Source of the DNA: Antedon mediterranea | Taxonomy: Eukaryota; Echinodermata; Crinoidea; Comatulida; Antedonidae | Length of the DNA: 64,000 bases | Direction: 5' to 3' | Assembly (NCBI RefSeq): GCF_964355755.1 | Contig: NC_092674.1 | Location: 19,680,001-19,744,000 of the forward strand | In this document: positions 8,875 through 43,200 of the stretch, piece by piece | How positions within the stretch are numbered: position 1 is the stretch's first letter | How the letters are laid out: each line of letters opens with the position of its first letter | Notes under the pieces: model-generated | Told to the model about the DNA's origin: nothing | The model's database searches: none | Seen by the model: only the letters and a program-made list of their open reading frames with translations | Made by a program: the position numbers and the translations under genes

Positions 8875-11800
8875 ATGGCTTCTTGGAATGAATTACCTTC
8901 TGAATACAATGATCCATTTTGTGTAGCAAGCCAGCAGTCTTGTCATTTCTCTTCACCCATCCACTTCAGGTAGGCCATAAAACATGATCATAAACTGACA
9001 ACATTTTTTTATTAATTGTTAATAATGGAGTATTGCAAGGTTGTTAAAAGCTCAAACATTTTTTTTTTATATTCAGTTCTTAATTAGAACCAAACCAGAA
9101 AGATTGTATTCTATAAAGGAAAATGTCACCACACTATCTATGTCATTAGAATGCATATACAGTACACACATTTCATTGGTAAATTGCCATTTAATCATTT
9201 GATTGTTGATCATGTGGCATTTATTGTATAAATGGTCCTCTACATGGCAGTTGCCCTTCAATCTAACGAAGTGTAAGATCATGCATTTTGGTAATAACAA
9301 CCAGAAGTTTAAATATAGTATAGGAGTAGGCGAGCAGAGGACAGAACTGGAAGCTGTAAGTGAGATGACCTAGGCGTTGTAATTGACGATAAGCTGAGTC
9401 TTAGATCTCATGTGTCCCATGTAATTTCTTTTGCTAACAGGAAGTTAGGTATTATATATTGAGCGTTTACATTTTTGGACCCTGAGAGTTTTTTGCTGTT
9501 ATACAAGTCGCTTATACGTCCAACCCTGGAATACTGTAGTAATGTCTGGGTTCCTAAGTTTTTAGCGGATGAGGATAGGTTGGAGAAGCTACAACAAAAG
9601 GCCACCCGATTCATTCCGGAACTAAAGTGTACAGAGTATGTATGTAGGCTAAAAATACTTGATCTTCCTACGTTAGTTTATAAAAGAAAGAGAGCTTCTC
9701 TGATTCAAGTATTTAAAATCCTGAAAGGATTCGATAAATTGGACATTGAAACCTTTTTTAATATGTCAACTATCCATTATACTAGAGGTCATTCTTTCAA
9801 ACTATTAAAGCCGCGGGTCAAAACTAAATGGGGATCAAATAATTTTGGAGCAAGAGTAGTTAACGATTGGAACGCTTTGCCGAGAGTTGTTGTAGAGTCA
9901 AAGTCATTGAATCAGTTTAAGTCTAATTTGAAAGAACACTGGAAAAACCACCACCAGAAGTTTCAGCCGTATGTAAGAGATTTGTAATTCCAGAGAGGCG
10001 AATAAGCAATTTGCTTTAGCCTTAATTTCAAGGTAATTCAAAGGTAAAATTGGTTATTTTGTCCCATTCAATGAATAAACATTATTATAACTTGTTATAA
10101 TAATAATAATAACTTGTTATTATTATAATTGTCTATTGAAACATGCTAATCAACTTCAGGTTTTTGAAACATACTCAGATTTCAAATAATGTCCCCTAAA
10201 ACAGACCTATAAATTGCTCCATCTATAATTGTCATTCATCCAGGTAGATAATCATCATTCGAAGGTTTACTTTTTCAGGTTTTTCATTCATATGGCACAG
10301 AGCTTAGAAAACGCAGACTTACAAATATTTTGGTTTTTTTTTCATTTTTGTAGGCCTAAAGGTGTCTTATCATATTATTATGAATGATAACTGTGGATAT
10401 AACATTGGTGGAAATACCAATGCATGGATTACAAATGCACATTAAAAGGGGAAAAAAATTGGAGTGGGTAAATGTATACCTCAGGGGTACCCCAATGGTC
10501 AGTTTTTGGTGCCCTTTTATATTTCATATAAGTGATATTGTAAATAATATTTCTTCTTTACTGTCCTCATTCTTTCAATGAGTATATTACAATTAGTGAA
10601 AGATGTCCGGGTAGGCTTTTACAATGGAATTTATAAGGCAATACTTTTTATAATTCTATGTTTGTTTCCCTAGACTATGGAAGCAAATACCAATTTCAAT
10701 ATTTAAGGCTTCTGTGTCAAAAACATTTTTTTTTATATTATAATTTTTAAATTTTGTTGTTCTACAGTTTGTTAATTGTATTGTCCTTTTGAGCTTTAGC
10801 CTATTCTCTCTCCTGGTTATTATTTTTTGGTGACCGAATAAATATTATTAATATTAGATAAAATTAAATTAAATCTAAGCAACCAACAGAAACATGAAGA
10901 GATTCATTAAAAAAAACTCCATTCGGCTATAGATTATGACAAACTTTGTCATTGACTTGGGCTCATTTTCAGTATGACATCATGTATTTTAATGTCACAA
11001 TTAAATTAACCTAGTGGTCGAGACTTCAATAAAGTTCTCACTGGAATTATTAAATAATATTGTGTACAGTATTCTGATCTGATCTGATCTTTAAGTGTTA
11101 CACCGATATATTAACACTATATAGGCCTACTTACCCTCCTTTTACAGATCAAGTGTACGTTATGCACCATACACCACATCACTACAAGATATTTGTGGAA
11201 CTGATAATGAAAACATTGATATTACCAATTCACAGCTCATATCTAGATCAAAATTTAAAGCATCAGGTAAACTTTAGGGTCATTGAGAATTGTTGCTACA
11301 GTAATTAATTTTAGCCTTTCCCATTAATGAGTGCATTGGGTCGACAGCATTGCCTTATAGTGAGATAGACCAGCAATTTATGTGATTCATAATCATATAG
11401 GAGTATAAGTACATGAAGAGTGAGGTACCCCTTCGGAAACAGCCTGTAGTGCAATAAAATGTTCAAGTTATAACTAACTAGTGTCTTTGCTTTATTATTT
11501 AAATCGGCAGGCATTGATATTCTGAATACTGAAACGATATATATAAATCAACAGGCACAGAATAAATTCTAAACCGCCTAGTGTATAATATATTTTAATG
11601 AAAATAACTATTTATTGTTGACCTTTGATTTTAACTTTATTTCAAAATTTATTGTTATACGTATACAGTACTACTGTTTTATGTTTGTCCATTAGGCCAA
11701 CTGACATCAAAACTGCTTTCACAATCAAACATATTCAGTCAATCTCAAAAGGGTTTCCAGAATTCAGTGTCGTCTTTAGATAACAGCCAAACACCTAAAA

Positions 11801-13228: not shown

Positions 13229-16200
13229 GTATCCTTTTATAGTTTACAGTTTGACTTTAATCTGCCAAAAAAAAATGATAACAATACTTTGCCTTCAAAA
13301 CACTCCTTCTTCTTCAAAAGTGTTTTTTTTTTGTAACTGAAACTACTTTGATAAAATCTATCTAGGTAGTTTCACTTTTCAACTTTCTCGCCATTCAGAT
13401 TTAAATGAACGATTTACATGCTACTGTAACAAAAACTATCCTATATTCTATAATCTAATCAAGTTTTCTTAATGTTTCAACCAGCGGAAAAATATAGAAA
13501 CATTTTTCCATTCCCATATTTCAATGCTGTACAGTCTGCAGTTATGAATGATGTAAGTATTTCATTCAAACATACTGTATGCACAATATTACTTTATTAA
13601 TATTCAATTTTTATTTACCAGTAATAGTTTTACCCCCTTATGTTTATTATAGACAATAACAATTACTGTACTATTGGAATACACACCCTGTGGTGGTTAT
13701 TGTTCAGGAGGGTTTTTAGGGAGAAAATATCTTATTGAAAAATGAAAAAGACTAGGAATTATTTGTTTTTTATGATCTTAGCTCAACTTTTCTTAATAAA
13801 AGTGTTAAATAGTATAGTATATATTTTCTGCAAAAAAGATAGATTAAAAGTGTATTGGTACAGTAGGTGTTTTACACTATAAAACAAATAATGAATGTTT
13901 GTATTTATTGAATGGGAAGAATGTTGTCACTCGTTGGAAGCCTGACAATTTGTTAAACTATCCATTAAATTCATACAAAATTATTTTGTTCACACTATTT
14001 AATATAGGCACTGTACACTGATAAGTCTCTTGTTGTATCAGCACCAACTGGATCTGGAAAAACGGCAGTGTTTGAGTTGGCTATTGTACGCCTTCTAAGT
14101 TTTGGAAACATCTCTTCATTCAAGATAGTGTATAGTTAGTATTATGTTTGTGTTCATGTAAAAGATGACATAAATGAATGAATGCAAGAAAACCAATATA
14201 CAATTTTTGAAAACATGGAAATGTTAACCATGGAGACAAGGATAAAGCAAAACAAAGCAATGTAGCTGTCAGGCTTGCTTAAACAGCCTACCCACGCTCA
14301 GCCTACGCCACCTAGAGGTGGGCTTATGACTTCGGTCACCCTCACATGTTGTGGTGATTGCCTTCACTTTGTTCACCTTCACTTTGTTCACCTTGCATAT
14401 TGCAGTTGCCTCTGTCAATTAGTGTATCTGGCATGTTGCGGTTTCCTTTACCACTTGCGTTCTAACAAGCATAATTAAAGAGAATTTTGTCTCAGCCCTT
14501 TAAATTCAATGTGTATTTTTGTTTATTGTTTATAGTGGCTCCAATGAAAGCATTGTGTAGTGAACGTTGTCAAGATTGGCAAGAGAAGTTCAGTGCATTG
14601 AACATCAAATGTTCAGAACTCACTGGAGATACAGAAGAAGAAGAATGCCAACAACTTCACAATTCATCTATCATTCTGACAACACCTGTGAGTTTAGTTT
14701 CAGTTCAAAACGCCTTCAGACTGCCTGAAAATAATAATTATAACCAGTGGCGTATCCAGGATTTTGAAGTTGGGGGGGCCGGGAATTGCCAATTTGCCGA
14801 CAAAATTGGTGTACATACACGACGTCTCTGATCAAGGATTACATAGTCATATTGTCTTATATCCGGGGATAACGATGCAAAATTAAAACCAAACCAATAT
14901 TATCTGTTAGTATGTTGTATTCATATTACAATAAAGAAAGAATTAGGAAAATCTGATTTGTAGTTTTCGAAATATAGGGTCTAAAACATCGCCGAAAATG
15001 ATCGTTTTTAGCCACGAAAGAAGTAAAACAATTTGCGGCCTCAGTCGACAATTCTATTAACTATTTTTTTGGTTAAAATAATTACATATAATTACGTTTT
15101 TTAGTAATTTATTTTATATATCACCATTGGAAATATCAATAAAACATGTTATTAAATGCTTATAAAATATATAAAGTTGTTTACTTAACGGAATTCGGAC
15201 AAATTCATTGCTCTAACTTTGTGTATTAACGATCAGAGAGATTCATGGTACACGCGCGAGAGAAAACATTCCGCTGCGGGTGATTCGCATCCACCAATCA
15301 AATCAGCTAGAATCCTAAATCATTCAACCGTGAGCAATGCCAATCGCGAAAAAGCTCAGCTTTGATTGGCTTACGATGACATCATATCACAAAATGGTGG
15401 TTTTGTAGTTGAGCCTCACGGAATATTCTGTTCCAAAAATGAAATACATGGATATTTTTTATGGTATATGTGCTTTTTCTTTAAAAATTTTGAATAATAA
15501 AGGCCTCATATCGAGAAAAAAAAACGGGTTTTTTGCACTTATAATAAATATATCTTAGACAAAAAAGCACATGGCATGTGGAACTATATAATCTCTTAGC
15601 GTAGGAAGACATACAAATCCCAGGTCATGAGAGGCTCAACTGCATGCAAAAACAAGGTTTTAGGGTAAGGTCAAAGACTTTTGAGTAAACAATCTACCGC
15701 GTACGGCCGTACGTACGTGCTACACATTTTTTACGTGTTTCGTTAGATGTAATGAAAATAAAAAATAGTTGATCTGAAGGGATCAATGATGATATGATAT
15801 GTAAATATTAACAAACAGTCAAAAGAATTATGTTTACAGTTCAATTATTGTCAGAATAAATAGTTTATTTTTTTCCCCGGCACCTTTGTTTGCCGACGGC
15901 CGCGATGATGTGCCGACGGAAACGAAATCAGGGGGGGCCTGGGCCCCCCCGGCCCCCCTACTGGATACGCCACTGATTATAACAATGGACAATCAAACAG
16001 TTGCAACCTGTGATTAAAAATGAACATTGCCATAAGCTTGCTGAATTCTACCAAATTTTACAGGAAAACCGTTATCAGCTTTTATTCAGTAAAATTGGTA
16101 ACTAATTTATTTAATAATACATTTTTTTTCCTTTGCAGGAGAAATGGGACAGCATGTCAAGAAAATGGCGTGACAACAAATCTCTTTTTAAACTTGTTAA

Positions 16201-19200
16201 GCTTTTTCTGATAGATGAGGTCAGATATGAATTTGGGGTTTTGTTTGTTGCATTTTGTATAAATTATGTGTTTGTTTGTACTGCCCCAAAACCAGAAAGC
16301 ATCTCATAACCAACATTGTTATTCTTTATTCTTTTGTAAAATCTGCGATTATTTTGTACAAACCCTAGTTTGATGCACAGCAAAAATGAACAAATTATAC
16401 CACATTGATTGAGTGCATTAGTACAAAGCATGCTCATAAAGATAATGTAAACTTGTATTAGAAGTGAACAATACATTTTTCAGGTACATTCAGTAAATGA
16501 TGACACTCGTGGGCCTACTGTTGAGGCGGTTATAAGTCGAATGAAGACTGTGAAACTTACAACTGGTGTAACATCGGATGAGGACCCAAAACTACGTTTT
16601 GTAGCAGTGTCTGCAACTATGCCCAATATTGAAGATGTAAGTTAAAGCTCAAAGTTCTAAATAACATATAAGTTACATAGATTATGATAATATCACTAAG
16701 TTAGTATAAAAACATAAGGAACAAAAAGTTTAAGGGGAAAAATGATGTGATGGTCAGCTAATAAAAAGTGGTGATGATGATGATGTCGAATATTGGTTGA
16801 TCATTATCATCATCATCATTAACAATGAAGAACGAAAATGGTCTCCAATGTTATTTGTCGCATGCATCCAATCCTTCATAGCTTCCCAATGTTAAACGGT
16901 AACAATTATTACTGATTTTAAAATCACACATAATGAAATTTAAAGTATAATGTGAAATTAAGTAAAAATAAAGTAAAAAGTGTTTTGCCTGGTCTTCTGT
17001 AATATTTCATGTGTTATCATTGTTATATAACATTAATTATTTTCATTATTACAGCTTTCTGAATGGATTGGCGATGCTAAGTCTCCAGCAATTTATCACA
17101 AGTAGGCCTATTACTTTTATTATCAATCAAAATTAATGAAATCATGAATGTTTTGGATATCTTCAAATTAGTTATGTTAAGACATTTATTGTTGTTTGCA
17201 AAACAAACAAAATAATCATTAAATAGTAAGTAAAAAGAGACTTTGGTATGTCACTTCAATTCAGTTTATTATTGAAATATTGAATGCTTAAAACCCTGAG
17301 ACATTTTTCTTAAGACATTATTTTTAAATATCAAAGCATATTTTCGTCTAGAAGATGCCATTGTCCATATTAGATGTAAATAACACATCCCAATGTTGTC
17401 TGATTTGTTTTACAATAAAATAGTCATTTTCATAAACTAGGTTTTTTTTTTTTTTTTTTGTGGATTTTTACTTTTATGTTAAACCAAGACAACGAAAAGG
17501 AATAATATTACCTTCGTGACGTTTCGCCGACAATCTGTCAGCTGCTTCAGACTAATGCCTGGGTTGGAATGGTCTGGTTTTTTGTAAGTGACGCTGAACA
17601 GCGCCACCAGCCGTCTGGTTGGTCTTGACGGTAGAGCGTCTCCGCTGGCCCCCTCCTGCTTCAACTTTTTCCAGCAAACTATCATATGTATGTGGGAGGT
17701 CATACCCACCAATGTCTCTGTTGATATTATGTGGTCTTTTTCTTATGCAGTTAGATTCTTTTATCTTTCTTTTGTCTGTCTGTGCTTCTTTTTCAATAAC
17801 TCTCGCATTCCAATTTGGAATATGGTCATTCCCTATAGCGTGGTCAGTTATGGCTGACTTATGTAAAACCTTGGACGAAGAATTTCTATTTGCACGTGTT
17901 CTAACTACTTGGTTGTGTGTTGATACGTCTTTTTTATGTTCCCCAATTCTTGTATTCAGTGCCCTTCCGGTCTCTCCTATATATACTTTCTCACAGTTTA
18001 GACAGTTCACTTCGTATATAACCCCGCACATGTCTTCCGTTTTTATTCTATCTTTTGGGTGGACCAGTCCATTCTTTAATTTATTACTTGGAATGAAGAA
18101 AGTGTTCACTTTGTGCTTAGCAAAAGTGCGTCGAATCTTTTCAGAAATTCCGTGTATGTATGGGATACCTATGTGAGCTTTCATCTTCTCCATTTCCTTT
18201 CTTTGGCGTTCTTCTGGTTTGTTTTTTGACTTTTGTTCTTTTCTCTTGTTTACGACTCTGTCTACTGACCATTTTGGATAGTTACAAATTTTCAATGCTT
18301 TTTTAATGTGTTCCAACTCATGTTTTTTATCTTTCTCTTCACTAACAATTGTGTCTGCTCTATTCACTAACGTGTTAACCACGTTTAGTTTGTGTTCTAA
18401 GGGATGATTAGAGTGGAAGTCCAAGTATTGGTCGGTGTGAGTTGGTTTTCGGTATACCTTGGTAGCGAGTGTTCCATCTTGTTTAATCGTGATACTCATG
18501 TCCAAGAATGGTATTTGTTTCTCTGACATTATTTCTGTGGTAAACTTGATGTTGCCCGACGGGTCAATGCTATCAAGATGGCGATTGAGGGGGAGAGGTG
18601 CATCTTTATGGACAATGGCAAAAACATCATCAACATACCGTCTCCAAAAACGTGGTTTGATGGTTCTATCTGCGCTCTTAATGGCTTCCTCTTCTAACCA
18701 TTCTAAATAGATATTCGCTATCAGAGGGCTTACCGGAGATCCCATTGCAATACCTTCGTGCTGTTCATAAATCTGTTGTTGAAATGTGAAATATGTCGCA
18801 TTAATTAACTGGTAGATGAGTTCCATGATGTCTTCTACTGTTAATTTCGTTCTCTTATGTAGTGTTGTATCTTTTTCCAAGTATGATCTTACAACCTCCA
18901 AGGCTTGGCCTGTGGGTGTTTTTGTAAACAACGAGATGACGTCAAAAGACACCATCACCTCATTTTCCAGGAGTATCAACTGTTTTAGGTCTTCCGGAGA
19001 CGCTCTACCGTCAATACCAACCAGACGGCTGGTGGCGCTGTTCAGCGTCACTTACAAAAAACCAGACCATTCCAACCCAGGCATTAGTCTGAAGCAGCTG
19101 ACAGATTGTCGGCGAAACGTCACGAAGGTAATATTATTCCTTTTCGTTGTCTTGGTTTAACATAAAAGTAAAAATCCACAAAAATATTATTTGGAACCAG

Positions 19201-22200
19201 ATGAATTTATTCAATATAAACTAGGTTGTTTTATTAGTCTCTAGACCTGTCCTGTATTTAATAATGTAATGTTTTTTTCTCAATAGGTTTGATGATGCAT
19301 ATAGACCTGTACCTCTTAGGAAATATGTACATGGTTTCTATTACAATGAGAAGTCATCACCATACAAGTTTGATCTTTCTCTTAATTACCAATTGAGTAA
19401 AATGATTACAAGGTATTCAAACCAAAAACCAACCTTAGTGGTGAGTATTCATAGTTTTCAAGCACAGGTTCATGCGATGTCCCCCAATTCTCCTTGAATC
19501 TGTAAATAAAGTTGTAAAGATGAGTTCCAGAATAAAATTGTTCACACCTTTTATTGTAGATTTAGTTTCAACTGCAGATTAATTTTTACGTTTAATAGTT
19601 TTTAATGTGTTTGCTTTGAAACCAAATGGATAGAGATTTCCAATTTGTGTCACCATTTATTCATCAGTTATAAAAGAAAGTATATCTAGTAGTATATTAT
19701 TGATTACATAACACTCTTGAGGGTGCAGCACTGTTGCTAAGTAACACTCTTGAGGGTGCAGCACTGTTGCTAAGCATAAATATAAGAATGCTGAAGGTTA
19801 GATCATTAACTTCAATGCATTTGAAGCACAAAACTTGTCCATTTGTGGAGAGCTTCTCTCTATATGTCTGCCGCAAATCGACCAATCAGACACACCAATA
19901 TCACTACGCTGTACATTAATTCTTTTGGGCATCTGGAAGCTAAAGAGCCGAGAAAGAAATTTGTTTCTATGAAGTATTATTTCAATTATTGTCATTCTCA
20001 ATATAGTTAATAGAAAATATATATACGTTCAAACTAACTATTTCTCTTGTTTTTTTTATGGTTCTTTACAAAATAGTATCAATTATTAAGTTCCACCTTC
20101 ACTGCCCCGTATACCTAAGCAACTCAATGTAACCAGGAGAAGAGTGAACCCTGATATAAATACAGAAATTTGTTAATAATTGCATGTTATCTTTATTAGT
20201 TCTGCTCAACCCGTAAAGGAACACAAATTGCAGCAGACGTTTTAGCCAAGGATTCATATCGCTGGAATTTCAAAACTCGCCCCATTCTGCAAACTGAGGC
20301 AACACACTTAAAAGATGCTAAACTTAGAGGTAGTTCTGTTTAGAATTTCTTTTATAAGTTATTTTATTTAACTGATTTTTGTTAACTGATATAATTTGAA
20401 ATATGTAGTCATAAAAGTATAAAATATCAATTTAAAGTGTTTTCTTTATTTTTTATCATTGTGTAGTCTCTTAAATTGGCACATCATTGCAAAGACTTTT
20501 TTGTGTATTTAGACAAATTTAGAAGTAAACTAATTAATATCAGTTTAAATGTAATGATTAGCACCTCAAGTACGTTTTTGGTATTTTAAGGATAAAATAT
20601 ATTTTGAATAATCAATTTTAGATTTAGTATGCAAGGGTGTTGCTTACCATCATGCTGGCATGCATCGTGATGATCGTGACAAGATTCAAAATATGTTTAT
20701 TCAAGGCAACTTACCAGCATTAAGTAAGTTACATAATTATTTTTCAATTTACACACACTAAGAATTTTTAAACTAAACTTAATTACAGATGTCAGTTTTA
20801 ATGATGTCCCTAAGAGCCTAATGTGTGTCATTAGAAAAACATTTTCTTTGTATTTTGTCTAAAGTATCTCTACATAGAGCAAGACCTTTTTATTTATTAT
20901 CATTTAAAAATAAAAGAGCCGTGTATGCTAAATAAAACTATTACCTCAAAATACATTTCATACAAATGAATGTTTGGAAAGATTGACTGTTCTACAGTAT
21001 TTAGTTAAGCCAGTTAGGATTTCAGCTAATTTAAATCAAAGTTAATTGGTTATTCCAAAATTAAATTTTTAATTTATAATGCTTTTTCCCTAACTAGTGG
21101 CAACTAGTACTTTAGCATTTGGAGTGAACCTTCCAGCTCATTTAGTGATTATTAAATCAACACAACACTATGTATCTGGTCAATATAAAGAGTACAGTGA
21201 GTCTCAGGTGATTCAGATGATGGGCAGGGCAGGCAGGCCTCAGTTTGATACCTCAGCTTCGGTAGTCATTATGACTAAAAACCAAACCAAGGTATGTTAT
21301 TCAGCTTTATACCTTTATGTACACTGTATTCGATAGTATATCCCTCTGTAGGTGAAGTGGATCGTCGAACACCTTGGGGGTGATGATCACCACAAATCCA
21401 GTGGTGCAGCAAATGATTCACAACATCGGATGCAGGACATCACATTTGTGCTGTCGTCCGCTGTGTTTATTTAGTTCTGCAGCACAAAGATCCAATGTCC
21501 ACTACCACTTTAAGGTTATATTGTTTATAGTATGGTGTACTCTTTTATGCATTGAGTATATTCTCTAATGGGGTAACCAGAAATCAAATGCTAGTTTTGC
21601 TCACATTACATTAGAATTCTTTGGAATTTGGAATTGTTTTTTTTTTATATTAAATGATCTTAATATTGAAATGTATTTTAATACAATTTCAGGCTAAATA
21701 TGAGAGTTTAACTGCTGGTGAAAAATACCTTGAAAGCAGGTTAGATTTCTTCTTTTTCCTTGTGTATTTCATTATTTTCAACCAGTTGAACAAAAATTAT
21801 CAAGAAGCAAGTCACAATATTATCCTGATCTGACAAAAAAAGTATATTCTTTAGGTTTGTATTGTGAATAAACACTAGTAAAATTTAAGGTGACGTCAAC
21901 TTAGACTAAGCTACTTTAATATAACTCATCTTTACTGGTCTATTCTTCAGAGATTGTTGTGGCATAAACAACCAAAACATCAACACATTCTCCACCATAA
22001 TTTAATTTATTTCCTTTTGGTGTGCTGCAAACCTAACTTTACTAAGTAAAATATCCTAACAAAAAATACAATTGTCGAAATTTGTTTAAAAATAATTTTA
22101 GATCATTAACAATTGTTTTTAACTGACTTTTATTGTTTTTTGTTATACACTACAGTTTGCATACCCGTTTGATTGAGCATCTAAATGCAGAAATTGTTCT

Positions 22201-25200
22201 GCATACAATCAATGATATAAGTATTGCCTTAGAATGGCTTAAGTCAACTCTGCTGTATGTACGTATTCGTAAAAATCCAACTCATTATGGCATTGTTCAA
22301 GCCACTGCTTCCCAAGATGACATTGAAAAACATCTGATGGGTAAGTTACAGTACACTCATTATGGCATTCAAGCCACTGCTTCCCATGATGACATTGAAA
22401 AACATCTGATGGGTAAGTTACAGTACACTACATTCACAATATTCATTCATGTCATGACTTTTGAGCAAAAATGGGAAAATTAAGATAGTCCAATTAAGTT
22501 TTTTACTACAATAGTTGCATTAAATTTCAGGTACAGGCATGAATTTTAAATATAATATCTGGTCAATTGTACATAAATCAAATATTTGTAATAGAAATAC
22601 GAAAAAAGATGAATTTCTCTTAAAATGGTAAAATACAAAATTTGGCAAAATTCTGCTATAAAAACCAGGAAGACTTTATTTCAGTAGTTAAGTAGTTTAA
22701 CCTAATGTAATAACATGTCTGTATGTGAAAAAAGATGGTGGGTATACGGTGGATAATTTTTGATATAGCATGAAAATAAAACTCTCAAACAAGTTGAATA
22801 AAAATACTAGAAACGTAATATTCAAGTTATATTACCTATATTTAGTCATCTGATAACATTTTTTACCACACCGTTTATTTTTCATAGTTTTTTAAAAACT
22901 CCCAAGAATTATGAAACATAGAGGAAATTATAGATTGATAATTATTGGAATGTATGATCAAAATCAGAAATTTTTTGCCCGTGACTGGCCTTTATAAGGG
23001 AGTGTTTCCACATGTGGTTGATCCAAAAAATGACAGGAGTGAAGCACTTAAAAGCTTTATTGTTACAACACACCTAGCAATTTACTCCTTTCTCCCTGTT
23101 TAGTTTTTCTCTTTTTATAAATACAAAATATTTCAGGTATTTGTGTGAGTGACTTGAACAGACTTTCTGGTATTGGAGCAATCAATATGGATGATGAGGG
23201 ATTTGATGTGAAACCCACAGGTAAAGCTATAGTATAACAATAATTATATTCATTTGAGCTTATTTGATGTGAAACCCACAGGTAAAGCTATAGTATAACA
23301 ATAATTATATTCATTTGAGCTTATTTGATGTGAAACCCACAGGGAAAGCTATAGTATAACAATAATTATATTCATTTGAGCTTATTTTATATAATACTGT
23401 AGATATCATTGATTTGTAGTTGTTACTGAATATTGAAATATGTTTTTTTCTTAAGATATTGGTCAGCTGATGGCTAGATATTGTATTTCTTTTGATACAA
23501 TGAAAACATTTTGTAACATTAAAGGAGATGTAGACCTTGAAGAAATGGTAAGTTAATAGCTGTATGCTACAATTACTGTAAATTAAATTTATATATTTTA
23601 TCATTTAACATAAATTAGAAAACATTTTGATTCCTGCCCAATACATTTGATTTTTCTCAGACTTTCTTTAAAGCCCAGGTACAGGCATGAATTTAAAATA
23701 TAATATCTGGTTAATTGTACATAAATCAAATATTTGTAACAGAAATCAAGACGAAAAAACATGAATTTCCCTTAATATGGTCAAATACAAAATTTGGCAA
23801 AATTCTGCCATAAAAACCAGGAAGACTTTTTTTCAGTAGTTAGGTAGTTTAACCTAATATAATAACATGTCTGGTGACTCCCTAGAAGGTGAAAAAAGAT
23901 GGTGGATGTACAGTGGATAATTTTTGCTATAGCATGAAAATAAAAATCTGAAGTTGAATAAAAATACCAGAAATGTAAAATTCAAGTTATATTACCTATA
24001 TTTAGTCATCTGATAATATTTTTTACCACACCGTTTATTTTTCATAGCTTTTTAAAATGCCTCTCTATTTACAAAATTTGTGTACAAAAGAATAGAGATT
24101 TTACTGTGTAATTTGATCTATCCCCCACTGATAAGAAAGTGCTTATTTTCAACAAGCTCGTGTAAAACAAATAAAATCCCAAAGATTTTGAAACATAGGG
24201 GAAACTATAGATCAATAATTATTGGAATGTATGATCAATAGAAATTTTTTGCCCGTGTGGCGACTGAATAAACCACATAGACAAAAATATCTAGGAGAGC
24301 TATTATTTCACTTTTAATTCGAAAAATCCAAACAATTCAGAATTTAAATGACAGTGACAACAGCCCACCTAATATGCCCAACTCGCTGGTTCACTCCTAG
24401 AATGAAACATAGTAAGTTATAGTTATACACAGTATATTAAAGCCCCATTCCCTACGTTTTTTAGATCTAATTTAAGATCACAAACTATATTTAATGTAAA
24501 AATAATACTATATGGTCCTATTGCGATAACTTTTTTCGTCTTTAAACGGTTAAAAATGTGAAAAATAAGTCGATTCTAATAATTATAGCGGCCCGCTATA
24601 AATCCCAAAATGCATTGCGCGCGGATTGATATTTTTGTTTTTCTTCTGTAATTCACCCACTTTTCGATTGATCGTGAGGCCAAAACAAATGGAAGACTCC
24701 TAACTTTTCAGCGAAAATACCGGGTTTTCCCCCAATTTGTATCAACGGAGTCTGGCAAAAATAGAAAGACAATTAATGCAGCAACTATACAACGTCAGGC
24801 TAGGTATATAGCTCGCGTACGATGTTCGTACGTTACCGATGTTTACCAGCTAGGCCTACAAAACTAAGCCTAGCTAGGCTAGGCCTAAGACCGTCCACGA
24901 GAGGTCGATCGCCGCGAGCTACTTAGGTAGTGCATTGTTTCTCACTTTTTATCATAATTTACCATAAAACGTACATTTAAGACAAGGAATGACATGGTTT
25001 AATGTTTTTAAAGTGATATATATGTATTATTTTCCAAAAAACGTCCAAAATTGCAGGGAAGGGGTCTTTAAATGATTTACTCAAAACGCTATGTCGGCAC
25101 ATATAAAGGTAGCTGCTAAATGATTTATATAAAGGTAATCGTACTCTATCCACTAAATTATAACAGTCAGAATTATTACTATCCTTTCAATCAATATCAA

Positions 25201-28200
25201 ACTTTAACACTATAATAGCAATACGTAAACAAAATAACATCGTAAAACTGACGCTTTCAACGGAAACAAGTCTCAACAAGTAAAACCGTTCAAGCGTGAC
25301 AGCAGAGAACACATGGAGTGTGTCCATCTCTTGCACAACGATGCATCTTAACTTATTAACGTTACAGTCCAACCTAAATATCCTCTTATGTCTAAATGCG
25401 CAAGTATAGTATTAACTTCACATAATAATGCCTTGCGTATATCAACAATTGTTACTCTTACATGATGATCGTGAATCGAAACAGTGTTCGCAATTAACAT
25501 AGATAATCTCTTTTCTGTTACCATCGAGTAATAATTATCTATTCATAATATGGCACGCCATTATAGTTCAACGGCTAAACAACGTGGATCATCCACGACC
25601 TAATTTCGAAGGTAGGAGATCTGTACAAATATTAACAATACGTCATTTACTTACAGAAGGTTACAATATAACGTTTATGACTATAAGTAAAGTATAACTA
25701 ACTATCAGTATTTAATAAACAACTATGCAAGTCTGACTCAGCTCAATACTGGTTTACATGTTTTTCTCCGGTCACCCATGTGCGTTCCACTCTCCTCCAC
25801 CTCTAGAGGGCGCTACTCTTAATCTAATATATCACACCCGCACTTGGCCTTTAAGCTCTGTCTACACTATCAAACTAGTTTGACAAAAAAAGTGTGCTGT
25901 GCCCAAATATGGTATTTATATGACATCATCATGTCCATATGTGAACGCATCACATTTTGTTGTCGCATAAAGATGGATAGTATAGCAACAAAGCTTTAGA
26001 ATGTAGAGATAATTGGATAAAAATGTTGCATTCTGTAAGTGGCGGGCTTCCTGCTGTTGGATGTGAATGAATTAAAATATTAAATTAAAATAAAAAACAA
26101 ATTACAATTACATAATATCTTTATCTGAAGGTAAATATTTTATCATCTTGCCATGAGTTTGATGACATTAAACTTCGAATGAATGAGCGACGCCTGCTGA
26201 ACAGTCTCAACAAAGATGCCAATCACATAACCGTACGTTTCCCAATTGCTGGTAAAATTAAATCAACACAACTTAAAGTAAACTGGTAAGCATTTTTACT
26301 CAATTTATTAAAAACCTGTACTATAAGTGTTTAAATGTGCATATTACATTTCTAGAAATATATGACTATGATTAAGATAAAATGATATAAACATTCTATT
26401 TTATAAGTATTTTAAAGCCCCATTCCCTACGTTTTTTAGATCTAATTTAAGATCACAAACTATATTTAATGTAAAAATAATACTATATGGTCCTATTGCG
26501 ATAACTTTTTTCGTCTTTAAACGGTTAAAAATGTGAAAAATAAATCAATTCTAATAATTATAGCGGCCCGCTATAAATCCCAAAATGCATTGCGCGCGGA
26601 TTGATATTTTTGTTTTTCACCTGTAATTCGCCCACTTTTCGATCGATCGTGAAGCCAAAACAAATGGAAGACTCCTAACTTTTCAGCGAAAATACCGGGT
26701 TTTCCCCAATTTGTATCAACGGAGTCTGGTAAAAATAGAAAGACAATTAATGCAGCAACTATGCAACGTCAGGCTAGGTATATAGCTAGCGTACGATGTT
26801 CGTACGTTATCGATGTTTACCAGCTAGGCCTACAAAACTAAGCCTAGCTAGGCTAGGCCTAAGACCGTCCACGAGAAGTCGATCGCCGCGAGCTACTTAA
26901 GTAGTGCTTGTTTCTCACTTTTTATCATAATTTACCATAAAACGTACATTTAAGACAAGGAATGACATGGTTTAATGTTTTTAAAGTGATATATATGTAT
27001 TATTTTCCAAAAAACGTCCAAAATTGCAGGGAAGGGGTCTTTAAAGTAAGTTTTTTCATTTAAGTAGCATAATAAATCAAAATAATACAATAAAAACAAT
27101 ATATTTCTTTGTTTCAGTCTTATCCAGGCAACACTTGGGTGCTTACCTGTTCAAGAATTTGCTTTGCAGCAGGATGTCTTAAAGATTTTCAGAGTCGGGG
27201 CACGTGTCTCCAGGTGTAAGTTAGACCTTTGACAACAGAGTTAACTGTATCTTCAATATATGGGCCGAAATATTCAATACAGCAACCTTTCTATTTTAAA
27301 TTGACAGTGAAAAAAAAAAGTGAAATGGTTGTTTAATATAGATATAAGAAAACCGAAGGCTAGATCATTGACTCTAGTACATGGGAATTTACCAGCTAGG
27401 CCTACAAAACTTTCAGTAGCTAATAGCCTAGAAATGTCTACGAGAGAACTTTCGATGCGAGCTACTTAGGTATAAGTGCATTGTTTTTCGCTTTTTATCA
27501 TAATAACCTTAAAACGCACATTTAAGTCAAGAAATGACCTGGTTTAATGTTTTTAAAGTTATATATATATGCATTATTTTTATAAATCGTAAAACATTGC
27601 AGGTCTAGTGTCTTTAAACATTGCCGAAACAAGCCTGTAGAGAACTTCTCCATAAGATCACCTTCACTGCCACACCTAGCCTTTAGCTTTATATTATCCG
27701 TATGTTGTTGAATAACAGTTTTGTTGTTGTTGTGTCTGTTGCATGTAGGTTTGTATGAGATGATGCAACAAACAGGGAACTACAAGTCATTGCTAAATGC
27801 TGCATTTCTTGCCAAATGTTTCAAGGCTAAGCTATGGGAAAATAGTAGATATGTGAGCCGTCAGATTGAGAGGATAGGACCAACCCTGTCTACAGCATTA
27901 GTCAATGCTAACATTGGTAGCTTCAATAAATTGCTGGACACCAACCCCAGACAAATAGAATTGGTTTGTGATAGTTTAATTGATTTGATGAACCTTTTTT
28001 TATCAAAATAAAAACATATACAATTTAATATTGGAATTGTTTAAAGCAAATTAAATAATAAATTTAGGTGAAATCACTTTTCTCTTCTTTTTGTTACCAC
28101 CCTGAACCACATTCCAAGATATTTCCTATTATGATGTTAAATTTTCCTTTCCTTGTAGTTAATTTAATCTTATTTACATGTGTGTGTCTAGATTGTTAAT

Positions 28201-34200: not shown

Positions 34201-37200
34201 TACTTTGTTAAAACTCTCACTGTCATAGTCGATTGAAATAGTAAAGTACATGTAACGATACACCACTACGACGTTTATATATTTTTAAATTATTAATTAA
34301 TACAAACGTTGAGAAGCAACTGTCAGTAATAACGTTTATTTATTTGTATATTATATGTTTATAATCTAACAGTAGGGCCTACCCACACTCACAGTAATAA
34401 AGTTTATTTGTATATATTTTTATATTACATCTAACAGTACCAACACTCACAGTAAGAAATTTGCGATTCAAATTGCGATCAAAAGTGGTTAATACCTTAA
34501 CAGTATTGTACAGCATTGCAATACTATTTATGTTTATTCTCCAAGGGGCCCATAAATCTAAATCTATACCTCTATGGTTAAACCAAATAATTTGGAATGT
34601 TTATTTGTATATTATATGTTTATAATCTAACAGTAGGGCCTACCCACACTCACAGTAATAAAGTTTATTTGTATATATTTTTATATTACATCTAACAGTA
34701 CCAACACTCACAGTAAGAAATTTGCGATTCAAATTGCGATCAAAAGTGGTTAATACCTTAACAGTCTTGTACAGCATTGCAATACTATTTATGTTTATTC
34801 TCCAAGGGGGCCCATAAATCTAAATCTATACCTGTATGGTTAAACCAAATAATTTGGAATGTTCCATTCATCACAAATCAATACATTTGTAAAAACGTAT
34901 ATTAAATGTATCAAAATAGTATTTTTTAAAGAAAATCGGCCTGTCTTCAACATTATGATGCTGTACTCGAACTGTTCAACCAGTTTTCAGCTATTAAAAA
35001 CAATTATCGTAGGAGGAGATAGGAAAATGCGAAGCCTCCTCGCATTTTTGTGGCGGGTATTTTTCAAGATGGACATCCATTAGACAGTGTATACCACGAT
35101 CGGAAAACACCCCTATTTGGGGCAAATCGTTGAACCTAAATTCGTTTTAATCGTCAATAACTAATTATCTAACTTAATTTAATTAGTAAACAGGGTTACA
35201 TCAGGTGGTTAAAATCAGTACCGAAAGTACGAACCAACTTTATATACCATCGAGTAAAAATTCTAGAAGTAAGGCGCGATTTACCGAATTTTGCCCTTAC
35301 GTAAATTTATATATAGATACCATTTTACTAATGTAAATATGTTCAGTATTCTTTTTTTTTTGCCTTAATAGAAAAAATGTAATGTACTGTATAATACATT
35401 TTCAAATAGGATACAGCATTTTTTCAATATGTTCTTATTCACACATATGTATACAAAATATAATGTATAATAAAGTTTCTATATTGTTTTTTATATTTTA
35501 TGTCTATTAAATTAATGTTTTTATTTGGTAGTACAGAATAGTGTTGGATTGTTAACACACAATCTTCATACAGTATAATATGGGATCATAGCTTGCTGTG
35601 CTTATGTGTGAGCAATGAACTCACTTTAGATTAACAGAAGAAATTATGTATATTATTATTATGGATGTAATTTGTGATTGTTATGCTTTTAGTTGGTTTA
35701 GATGTACAGCAAACCCTTACCTTAGAATACTTAAAAACAAGATATTCAACACACTTTACGCAAGGAAGTCAACAACCTACACTTAAAACATTTATGAAAC
35801 AATCAAAGCCAGTGAGGTTTACTGCTGCTACTCCTAAACCCAGAAGTCCAGAGAGTGCAGAAGACATAGAGTGGAGTCCATCAACTCAAGGTAAGATGTG
35901 TCTTTCATATAACAAGCTTCACTGTAAGGTAACTGCTAAGTTGAAAAAGAAACACATTTTGTATTTGTTTGCAATTTTCCTCTTTGGTGTGTAATTTATG
36001 TTACTGAAAAAAATAGATTAAAGAAATAAATGTGTTTATAAATTAAACAGTTTAATTGATTGATTTATTAACAGTTTTGTTACCATGGCTATTTAAAAAA
36101 AAAATTTGAACAGATCAGAAATTATATATTAATATTGTTTTGTTGTTATGAAATTATGAATTTTAATGTTAAAACTTTGGCAGAAGAAAGTGAGAATTGA
36201 CATGCTTTGTACCCGTAACCCAATAGCCAAGTTTCATGGGCACATACCACAGACAAGCAGATATTTTATGTTGTCAATTGCCATCTCATTATCTATTTTA
36301 TTCATATATATTCACATCATATTCAACAAAAACATTTTTTTTTCAGGAACGACACCTGAAGGTCGGAAGGCTTGCAGCCATAAATGTGCAAACAAGGGTT
36401 CTTGTGGTCATTTGTGTTGTAGAATTGGAGTGGCTATTAAACCAGCATCAAGATCAAAAGCAGCAAAAAGGCAGCTGGATATGATGAGTGGAACTACACC
36501 ATTAAAACAGAAAAGCATGACTTTGTTTTTAAATCAGCTTCATGCTAGGGCTAAGTGTATGCCTCAAATTCAGAGGCGACGAGAAACGCAGGACATTCCA
36601 CCTCATACATTTTCGGTAATATATATATATGTATCATCATTTAAGTTCAAAAGTTATTAAAATGTAACAATGAACTGAAATTACCAGGATAAGATAAACA
36701 ATTAGAACATTCATATTATTTGATGAAATTAAGTTTTGGTTTCTTTTGTTACAGATGAATCAAGAACAACTGGATGATACTAGAAAGACTTTGATGAATC
36801 AAGAACAACTGGATGATACTAGAAAGACTTTGATGAATCAAGAACAACTGGATGATACTAGAAAGACTTTGATGAATCAAGAACAACTGGATGATACTCC
36901 AAAGACTTTGAATAAGTTTAGATTTAAATCGAAAAAATGTAAAATGACATCTATATACACTGAACAAATCAACTCGTCAAGTGCTCTTGTATCTGTAGAT
37001 GAAATAATAGACCTTCCACCTAGTGATTGCTGCCAGTCTAGAACACAGTCTTCCTCCAACAGTACTAATAGTTTCAACACAATGCCCAGGTATTCTGCGA
37101 AATCACCAGATAGAGCAACTCCTAGAGATACTGCAGATTTACATACGGCAGAGCAAGGGAATACTCTGGCAAAGAGCAGAGTACAGACCAAGAAGCGAGC

Positions 37201-40200: not shown

Positions 40201-43200
40201 AAAGTGACGGATTGACACACCTTGTTCATTGATGTGACGTACCATCTAGGTTTTTTGACGCACCCCTGCGTCAGTAATTATTTGTAAATGACGCACCTCT
40301 CCCGGGTGTCGTATAGTTGGTCATACAATTGACAAGTGCATAATGAAGACATGAGGTTGTTAAAATGTGGATATGTGCTATAGTTTTTAATGACAATAGC
40401 ATTTGTGTCCTTGTGACTTTATTAATATTATGATTTATTGTCTACAGTAGTCTACAGCAATTATCAATGTATTATTATTTCTTGATTTGTTAATTTTCTT
40501 GAAGCAATGATGAAGTAGGCATGGTGAATGGTGTTACAAGCTCACAATTATCAGATGATTATGATTTTAACTACCAAGAAAGCAAGGTACTGTAAAATTG
40601 TATATACCATCAAGTAAACATTCTAGAAATAATGTGCGATTTACCAAATTTTGCCCTTGCGTAAATTTATATATAGATTCGACAACTACTGTACCCCTTT
40701 GTGACTTATCTGTATATAGTTACTCTTCCTTTACTCTCCAATGGATTCGACAACTACTGTACCCCTTTGTGACTTATCTGTATATAGTTACTCTTCCTTT
40801 ACTCTCCAATGGATTCGACAACTACTGTACCCCTTTGTGACTTATCTGTATATGGTTACTCTTCCTTTACTCTCCAATGGATTTGACAACTACTGTACCC
40901 CTTTGTGACTTATCTGTATATAGTTACTCTTCCTTTACTCTCCAATGGATTTGACAACTACTGTACCCCTTTGTGACTTATCTGTATATGGTTACTCTTC
41001 CTTTACTCTCCAATGGATTTGACAACTACTGTACCCCTTTGTGACTTATCTGTATATGGTTACTCTTCCTTTACTCTCCAATGGATTTGACAACTACTGT
41101 ACCCCTTTGTGACTTATCTGTATATAGTTACTCTTCCTTTACTCTCCAATGGATTTGACAACTACTGTACCCCTTTGTGACTTATCTGTATATAGTTACT
41201 CTTCCTTTACTCTCCAATGGATTTGACAACTACTGTACCCCTTTGTGACTTATCTGTATATAGTTACTCTTCCTTTACTCTCCAATGGATTTGACAACTA
41301 CTGTACCCCTTTGTGACTTATCTGTAGTTACTCTTCCTTTACTCACCAATGGATTTGACAACTACTGTACCCCTTTGTGACTTATCTGTAGTTACTCTTC
41401 CTTTACTCACCAATGGATTTGACAACTACTGTACCCCTTTGTGACTTATCTGTATACAGTTACTCTTCCTTTACTCACCAATGGATTTGACAACTACTGT
41501 ACCCCTTTTTGACTTATCTGTATATAGTTACTCTTCCTTTACTCTCCAATGGATTTGACAACTACTGTACCCCTTTGTGACTTATCTTTATATAGTTACT
41601 CTTCCTTTACTCACCAATGGATTCGACAACTACTGTACCCCTTTGTGACTTATCTGTATATAGTTACTCTTCCTTTACTCACCAATGGATTTGACAACTA
41701 CTGTACCCCTTTGTGACTTATCTGTATATAGTTACTCTTCCTTTACTCTCCAATGGATTTGACAACTACTGTACCCCTTTGTGACTTATCTGTATATAGT
41801 TACTCTTCCTTTACTCTCCAATGGATTTGACAACTACTGTACCCCTTTGTGACTTATCTGTAGTTACTCTTCCTTTACTCACCAATGGATTTGACAACTA
41901 CTGTACCCCTTTGTGACTTATCTGTAGTTACTCTTCCTTTACTCACCAATGGATTTGACAACTACTGTACCCCTTTGTGACTTATCTGTATATAGTTACT
42001 CTTCCTTTACTCTCCAATGGATTTGACAACTACTGTACCCCTTTGTGACTTATCTTTATATAGTTACTCTTCCTTTACTCACCAATGGATTCGACAACTA
42101 CTGTACCCCTTTGTGACTTATCTGTATATAGTTACTCTTCCTTTACTCACCAATGGATTCGACAACTACTGTACCCCTTTGTGACTTATCTGTATATAGT
42201 TACTCTTCCTTTACTCTCCAATGGATTTGACAACTACTGTACCCCTTTGTGACTTGTATATAGTTAGGCCTACTCTTCCTTTACTCACCAATGGATTCGA
42301 CAACTACTGTACCCCTTTGTGACTTATCTGTATATAGTTACTCTTCCTTTACTCACTAATGGATTTGACAACTACTGTACCCCTTTGTGACTTATCTGTA
42401 TATAGTTACTCTTCCTTTACTCACCAATGGATTTGACAACTACTGTACCCCTTTGTGACTTATCTGTATATAGTTACTCTTCCTTTACTCTCCAATGGAT
42501 TTGACAACTACTGTACCCCTTTGTGACTTATCTGTATATGGTTACTCTTCCTTTACTCACCAATGGATTTGACAACTACTGTACCCCTTTGTGACTTATC
42601 TGTATATAGTTACTCTTTCTTTACTCTCCAATGGATTCGACAACTACTGTACCCCTTTGTGACTTATCTGTATATAGTTACTCTTCCTTTACTCTCCAAT
42701 GGATTCGACAACTACTGTACCCCTTTGTGACTTATCTGTATATGGTTACGCTTCCTTTACTCTCCAATGGATTCGACAACTACTGTACCCCTTTGTGACT
42801 TATCTGTATATGGTTACTCTTCCTTTACTCACCAATGGATTTGACAACTACTGTACCCCTTTGTGACTTATCTGTATATGGTTACTCTTCCTTTACTCAC
42901 CAATGGATTTGACAACTACTGTACCCCTTTGTGACTTATCTGTATATGGTTACTCTTCCTTTACTCACCAATGGATTCGACAACTACTGTACCCCTTTGT
43001 GACTTATCTGTATATAGTTACTCTTCCTTTACTCACCAATGGATTTGACAACTACTGTACCCCTTTGTGACTTATCTGTATATAGTTACTCTTCCTTTAC
43101 TCTCCAATGGATTCGACAACTACTGTACCCCTTTGTGACTTATCTGTATATGGTTACTCTTCCTTTACTCTCCAATGGATTCGACAACTACTGTACCCCT

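Follow-up and report, generated by a model that had tools for sequence, protein, structure and literature searches.

Two in-frame candidate 5' splice sites created by a tandemly duplicated exon end in a predicted Ski2-like helicase gene of Antedon mediterranea

Duplications over splice boundaries are already known, as the accounts that describe them indicate (PMC4974935, PMC9035003, PMC2891723). A potato RdRp gene is reported to have gained an intron by tandem duplication across an intron-exon boundary, which 106 RNA reads confirm (PMC4974935), and the human ATP11A variant c.3322_3327+2dup, associated with hearing loss, was found in a minigene to extend an exon by 8 bp (PMC9035003). Among Drosophila near intron pairs <32 nt apart, sliding was the assigned cause of 9 of 31 and duplication of AG/GY proto-splice sites inside the reading frame that of another 5, and according to the same study, duplications in multiples of three permit alternative patterns (PMC2891723). 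The competition between equal donors has been described in a designed human-sequence library, in which the first of two equal 5' sites predominates, a result that by its authors' account resolves earlier conflicting evidence; exceptions to this rule were traced mainly to sequence farther from the site (PMC6783452).

Here we describe a duplicated exon end in a 64-kb window spanning 19680001-19744000 of contig C5, the whole stretch of 64,000 nucleotides that was analyzed, and compare it with these systems as they are reported. As in the potato gene, an apparently recent tandem duplication over a splice boundary has copied a real splice signal; the potato duplication affected the acceptor side and gave rise to a new intron, whereas the present one affects the donor side and is not a plausible source of one (PMC4974935). 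Like the ATP11A variant, in which an exon end was duplicated together with the start of its donor, the change would extend the exon, but it measures 72 bp rather than 8 bp, keeps the frame rather than shifting it, and leaves a whole GTAAGT at both donors (PMC9035003). The Drosophila boundaries were relocated via sliding or local duplication, as the boundary may have been here, although proto-splice sites were copied in those cases and an existing exon end with its donor in this one (PMC2891723). The library constructs likewise set equal-strength donors, spaced 2-77 nt apart, in competition for one acceptor; they are synthetic, however, with variable regions of 147-162 nt in human contexts, while the present case is natural, has a 185-nt exon and a 796-nt intron, and carries a much longer duplicated stretch around each donor (PMC6783452).

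The duplicated exon end and its host gene

Direct reading and repeat finders agree on a 75-nt copy 1 followed in tandem by a 72-nt near copy (TRF score 269; Table 1). Copy 1 holds 61 exonic nt and copy 2 holds 58, each followed by 14 intronic nt and each including TGG/GTAAGT, and what separates them is a 3-nt indel (GTT) plus a single substitution that changes CAA to CAT and hence Gln to His. The original prediction had described a duplication of the last 61 coding bases plus GTAAGT, which proved exact to the base, and had noted the one-codon and Gln-to-His differences, which we also see. Three nucleotides (ACT) are common to the junction. A whole-assembly DNA search with the repeat returned one match, its own locus, which together with the TRF score rules out a chance repeat.

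Table 1. Window positions of the duplicated exon end, its donors and the adjoining exons
Feature	Position	Strand	Basis
Exon, donor-1 form, 185 nt, ends in phase 1, most of winged-helix domain	22156..22340	+	In-frame chain, PF23445
Tandem copy 1 (last 61 exonic nt plus 14 intronic nt)	22280..22354	+	Repeat finders, direct reading
Donor 1, TGG/GTAAGT	22341..22346	+	Direct reading, exon chaining
Candidate optional exon extension, 72 nt, 24 open codons	22341..22412	+	Exon chaining
Tandem copy 2 (3 nt shorter, one substitution)	22355..22426	+	Repeat finders, copy alignment
Donor 2, TGG/GTAAGT	22413..22418	+	Context comparison with donor 1
Next exon, 84 nt	23137..23220	+	Exon chaining
Tandem array, 61 nt x 3.1, over next exon's end and donor	23201..23387	+	Repeat finders, exon chaining
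Following exon, in frame with donor 23221	23456..23547	+	Exon chaining

Donors 22341 and 22413 share the same 25 nt upstream and the same 17 nt downstream, so any local scoring of donor sites must be equal for both. They share the acceptor at 23136/23137 across an intron of 796 nt, and joining either to 23137 leaves 0 stops across eight chained exons (19287-23547), the donor-2 form being the donor-1 form plus 24 codons. The two donor positions, the 72-nt spacing with 24 open codons and the kept frame thus stand as first proposed, and the sequence contains a candidate alternative 5' splice-site pair, two donors with intact signals and one acceptor, from which two in-frame protein lengths could in principle be made. 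A new intron between the copies is implausible, since the AG sites before donor 2 would give introns from donor 1 of only 5, 11 and 33 nt; the donor and acceptor at splicing distance that intron gain by tandem duplication would leave between the copies are not present. Folding calculations predict little difference in accessibility, with 0.16-0.23 for donor 1 and 0.18-0.31 for donor 2, the latter being higher in all four window sizes. No processed copy recording a splice form was found among the 16 matches listed, which are the best candidates scored.

We placed 11 exons of the host gene between 14536 and 23547, and the 5' exons were not located; the exon numbers 17 and 18 follow the count of the original prediction. 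Eight successive exons (19287-23547) share one frame with no stop, and three upstream exons (14536-16636) chain stop-free among themselves. Because the phases of the two groups do not join, one or more exons between 16636 and 19287 must have gone undetected. A second RecA domain and a winged-helix domain, as in Ski2-like helicases, were both recovered (PF23445, 53.3 bits; cut-off, 27), and PDB matches were led by SLH1, ASCC3 and Brr2 (best E, 2.7e-57), while PF00271 scored 21.3 bits on the gene fragment, under its cut-off of 23.5. By these matches the gene is a Ski2-like helicase.

HFM1/Mer3, a meiotic helicase, differs from Brr2 and ASCC3 in having just one helicase cassette and one Sec63 domain. 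One Sec63 match was found on this contig (C5; window 26074-26283), with 2 TAA codons inside the matched stretch, and a weak match to the start of Sec63, under threshold, comes from the exon at 23456 (17.6 bits; cut-off, 25). Meanwhile, loci on contigs C7 and C8 carry two Sec63 sets each and appear to be dual-cassette relatives elsewhere in the genome. Given one match here against two sets at each of those loci, HFM1/Mer3 is the likely name of the gene, reached by elimination; none of the searches gave that label directly. The region of the Sec63 match is flanked by related stretches (24431-25072 and 26406-27045) that are 96-100% identical and lie ~1.97 kb apart. Farther downstream, an open frame at 36754-36911 contains 4.1 copies of a 39-nt unit (98%), read as MNQEQLDDTRKTL repeats, and this repeat may be coding sequence from the C-terminal part of the helicase gene.

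The winged-helix domain and the letters of the two copies

The duplicated exon holds most of the winged-helix domain PF23445, which follows the second RecA domain. The profile match reaches position 80 in the donor-1 form and ends at position 68 when the 24 residues are inserted, while the scores are 49.1 bits for the donor-1 form and 50.5 for the donor-2 form (53.3 and 54.5 in a second run). The donor-1 product had been called ancestral, and this sequence comparison supports it as the family-like form by coverage but not by score: the long form is marked as non-ancestral by profile coverage only, and bits are not lost. In alignments to PDB matches, the insert falls after DDIEKHLM, opposite HLSDHL in human Brr2 and SVNKFL in ASCC3, a region that we take to be the last helix of the winged-helix domain. 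Because the duplication carries the loop together with the start of the helix, the long form keeps one uninterrupted helix sequence and may fold around it. Structure prediction of the contiguous long exon alone, from a single sequence, gave a mean pLDDT of 59.6, with 40-48 by blocks over the repeat, and was set aside as too poor.

We then compared the letters of the two copies with the family. With copy-2 letters the exon end scores 59.3 bits against PF23445, compared to 53.3 with copy 1, and the two differences contribute separately (+3.6 bits for the codon alone, +2.5 for His alone). Scores of all 19 PDB matches of the Brr2/ASCC3/SLH1 type rise by 1.1 to 7.7 bits with copy-2 letters, although many of these 19 are the same human Brr2, so that the independent cases are far fewer; the other 5 of the 24 listed PDB matches are unrelated and change by <=0.6 bits. 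As a control, 20 random codon-deletion and substitution variants of copy 1 gave 46.0 to 59.1 bits, all being in-frame deletions by design, which leaves the control silent on frame. None of the 20 reached 59.3 bits and 7 exceeded 53.3, showing that the score often benefits when this loop loses one codon; the variant at 59.1 bits combines the same Gln-to-His change with deletion of a neighboring codon. These comparisons give a weak hint that copy 2 is retained sequence that is, or was, coding.

One possible explanation is that splicing now relies chiefly or solely on donor 2, so that the exon boundary lies 72 nt downstream, the winged-helix domain of the protein has gained 24 residues, copy 2 supplies the working helix and copy 1 is a drifting loop. 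That copy 2 is nearer the family at both differing sites, that every Brr2-type PDB match rises and that no random variant scores as high all speak for it. However, the copies differ at those two sites only, a random variant with the same Gln-to-His change comes close, over a third of the variants (7 of 20) improve on copy 1, and the profile describes the whole Brr2-like class rather than HFM1. The first-donor rule, as reported for the designed library, predicts the opposite (PMC6783452). We consider a takeover by donor 2 less likely than not, though with a real chance of being right.

The next exon and the background of tandem arrays

The next exon ends in a tandem array of its own (23201-23387), overlooked in the original prediction, with donors at 23221 (GT), 23282 (GT) and 23343 (GG, dead). 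The first two units match at all 61 nt, and the single substitution among the three units is the GT-to-GG change in the third donor; a random substitution would strike one of those two bases of a unit with a chance of ~2 in 61. Use of donor 23282 would lead to a premature stop at the sixth codon. Four nucleotides (ATTT) are common to the junction, and a whole-assembly DNA search with this array returned one match, its own locus. Neither array showed a sign of belonging to a dispersed repeat, each matching itself alone, and no other genomic copies of either were matched in a search that passes over very common words and scores only the best candidates. One reading of the units has the donor lost from an initial downstream copy before the sequence was duplicated again; the alternative is chance.

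This exon bears on donor choice in more than one direction. Loss of its most downstream donor is as expected were downstream donors used, and its second donor is predicted to be more open than the first in all four window sizes (0.58-0.64 against 0.16-0.42), which goes against an easy first-donor reading there; both points favor a takeover by donor 2 at the preceding exon. Conversely, the intact donor at 23282 would be tolerable only if downstream donors are largely ignored, and the predominance of the first equal donor in the library constructs would account for its tolerance (PMC6783452). Since equal donors resolve toward the first in those constructs, donor 2 at the preceding exon may itself be mostly silent (PMC6783452). 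Were it wholly silent, copy 2 would be a leftover of a recent duplication lying in the intron, with no effect on the protein; yet deviant letters would then be expected in copy 2 and are found in copy 1, and the sole indel between the copies keeps the frame. We find this explanation unlikely.

It is also conceivable that two alleles or reads were joined into a false tandem, and small differences between copies are what alleles might show. We judge such an assembly artefact highly improbable, given a unit of just 72-75 nt, three copies in the adjoining array, and similar arrays both in the window and in half of the other pieces of the genome that we surveyed. These were 14 pieces (123 kb in total), 11 taken at a fixed place on each large contig and 3 at two paralogue loci. 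With a period of >=30 and a match of >=85%, the 64-kb window holds 12 tandem arrays and the 14 pieces hold 16, with at least one in 7 pieces and none in the other 7, a density of about one per 5-8 kb; 5 of the 16 lie in one piece (L011), where four have a 98-nt period and so may not be independent. Two of the three arrays between 14.5 and 23.5 kb span a donor, for which random placement gives P ~0.008 in a region chosen for one of them; given that one, our rough estimate is 0.1. Elsewhere in the window, 40676-43653 is a large minisatellite (68-nt unit x 44, 96%), and an open stretch of 174 codons at 9463-9984 resembles what is presumably the end of a mobile-element reverse transcriptase. The intron after the duplicated exon end (22490-22961) and a downstream intron (23638-24238) share a dispersed repeat in several stretches, 82-95% identical and ~1.15-1.28 kb apart.

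We also simulated duplications, taking as input the sequence as it now stands, which already includes the duplication. Among 42,066 duplications of 40-120 nt at 11 donors, 17% were in frame and open, rising to 32% at donor 22341; among 34,109 of 40-260 nt, the values were 12% and 27%. Frame keeping is therefore weak as a sign of selection. Because arrays are common here and an in-frame, open outcome is reached in 27-32% of simulated cases at this donor, the duplication event belongs to an ordinary mutation class in a repeat-rich genome. The suggestion that a protein-length polymorphism or the origin of alternative splicing was being seen in the act applies solely to the DNA change, which is itself one of many short tandem arrays here.

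A two-isoform account and its meaning

The short tandem duplication took in the donor of the winged-helix exon along with the exon's end, in a Ski2-like helicase gene that is most likely HFM1/Mer3. As a result, one acceptor faces two 5' splice sites that lie 72 nt apart and are locally identical. We propose that the pre-mRNA is spliced mostly at donor 1 and to some extent at donor 2. As 72 nt is a whole number of codons, the longer product would be tolerated and selection would not have removed donor 2. In the long product, the extra copy would serve as a longer loop, and the native helix sequence would be formed by copy 2 joined to the next exon. The array at 23201-23387 would be an event of the same type, but out of frame.

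We put the whole account, a recent, short, tandem duplication with both donors used and donor 1 in the lead, at a probability of roughly 0.55. It is consistent with the intact repeat and donors, the two open frames, a PF23445 match that extends to position 80 only without the insert, junction homologies of 3 nt (ACT) and 4 nt (ATTT), the abundance of arrays and the first-donor preference reported for the designed library. Against it, the more family-like letters of copy 2 hint that donor 2 may be the main one, and the long form keeps its profile bits in both runs. The library's variable regions are also far shorter than this exon and intron, and exceptions there followed mainly from distant sequence (PMC6783452). 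Altogether, most weight falls on two isoforms with donor 1 ahead, with takeover by donor 2 as the chief alternative. A more specific and rather doubtful version of the latter is a one-step move of the boundary by 72 nt, adding 24 residues and making copy 2 the native helix, while the out-of-frame neighbor lost an extra donor. If that were true, the two exons would form a matched pair illustrating that the survival of a duplicated donor depends on reading frame.

If both donors are used, this exon would be a natural version of the equal-donor competition known from synthetic constructs, and it would offer a route by which a conserved helicase domain may gain residues with its helix unbroken. 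Adjacent exons of one gene would set frame-keeping against frame-breaking donors, with gene, expression and cell type common to both, which makes the twin-donor exon a useful natural test of an ordinary class of mutation.
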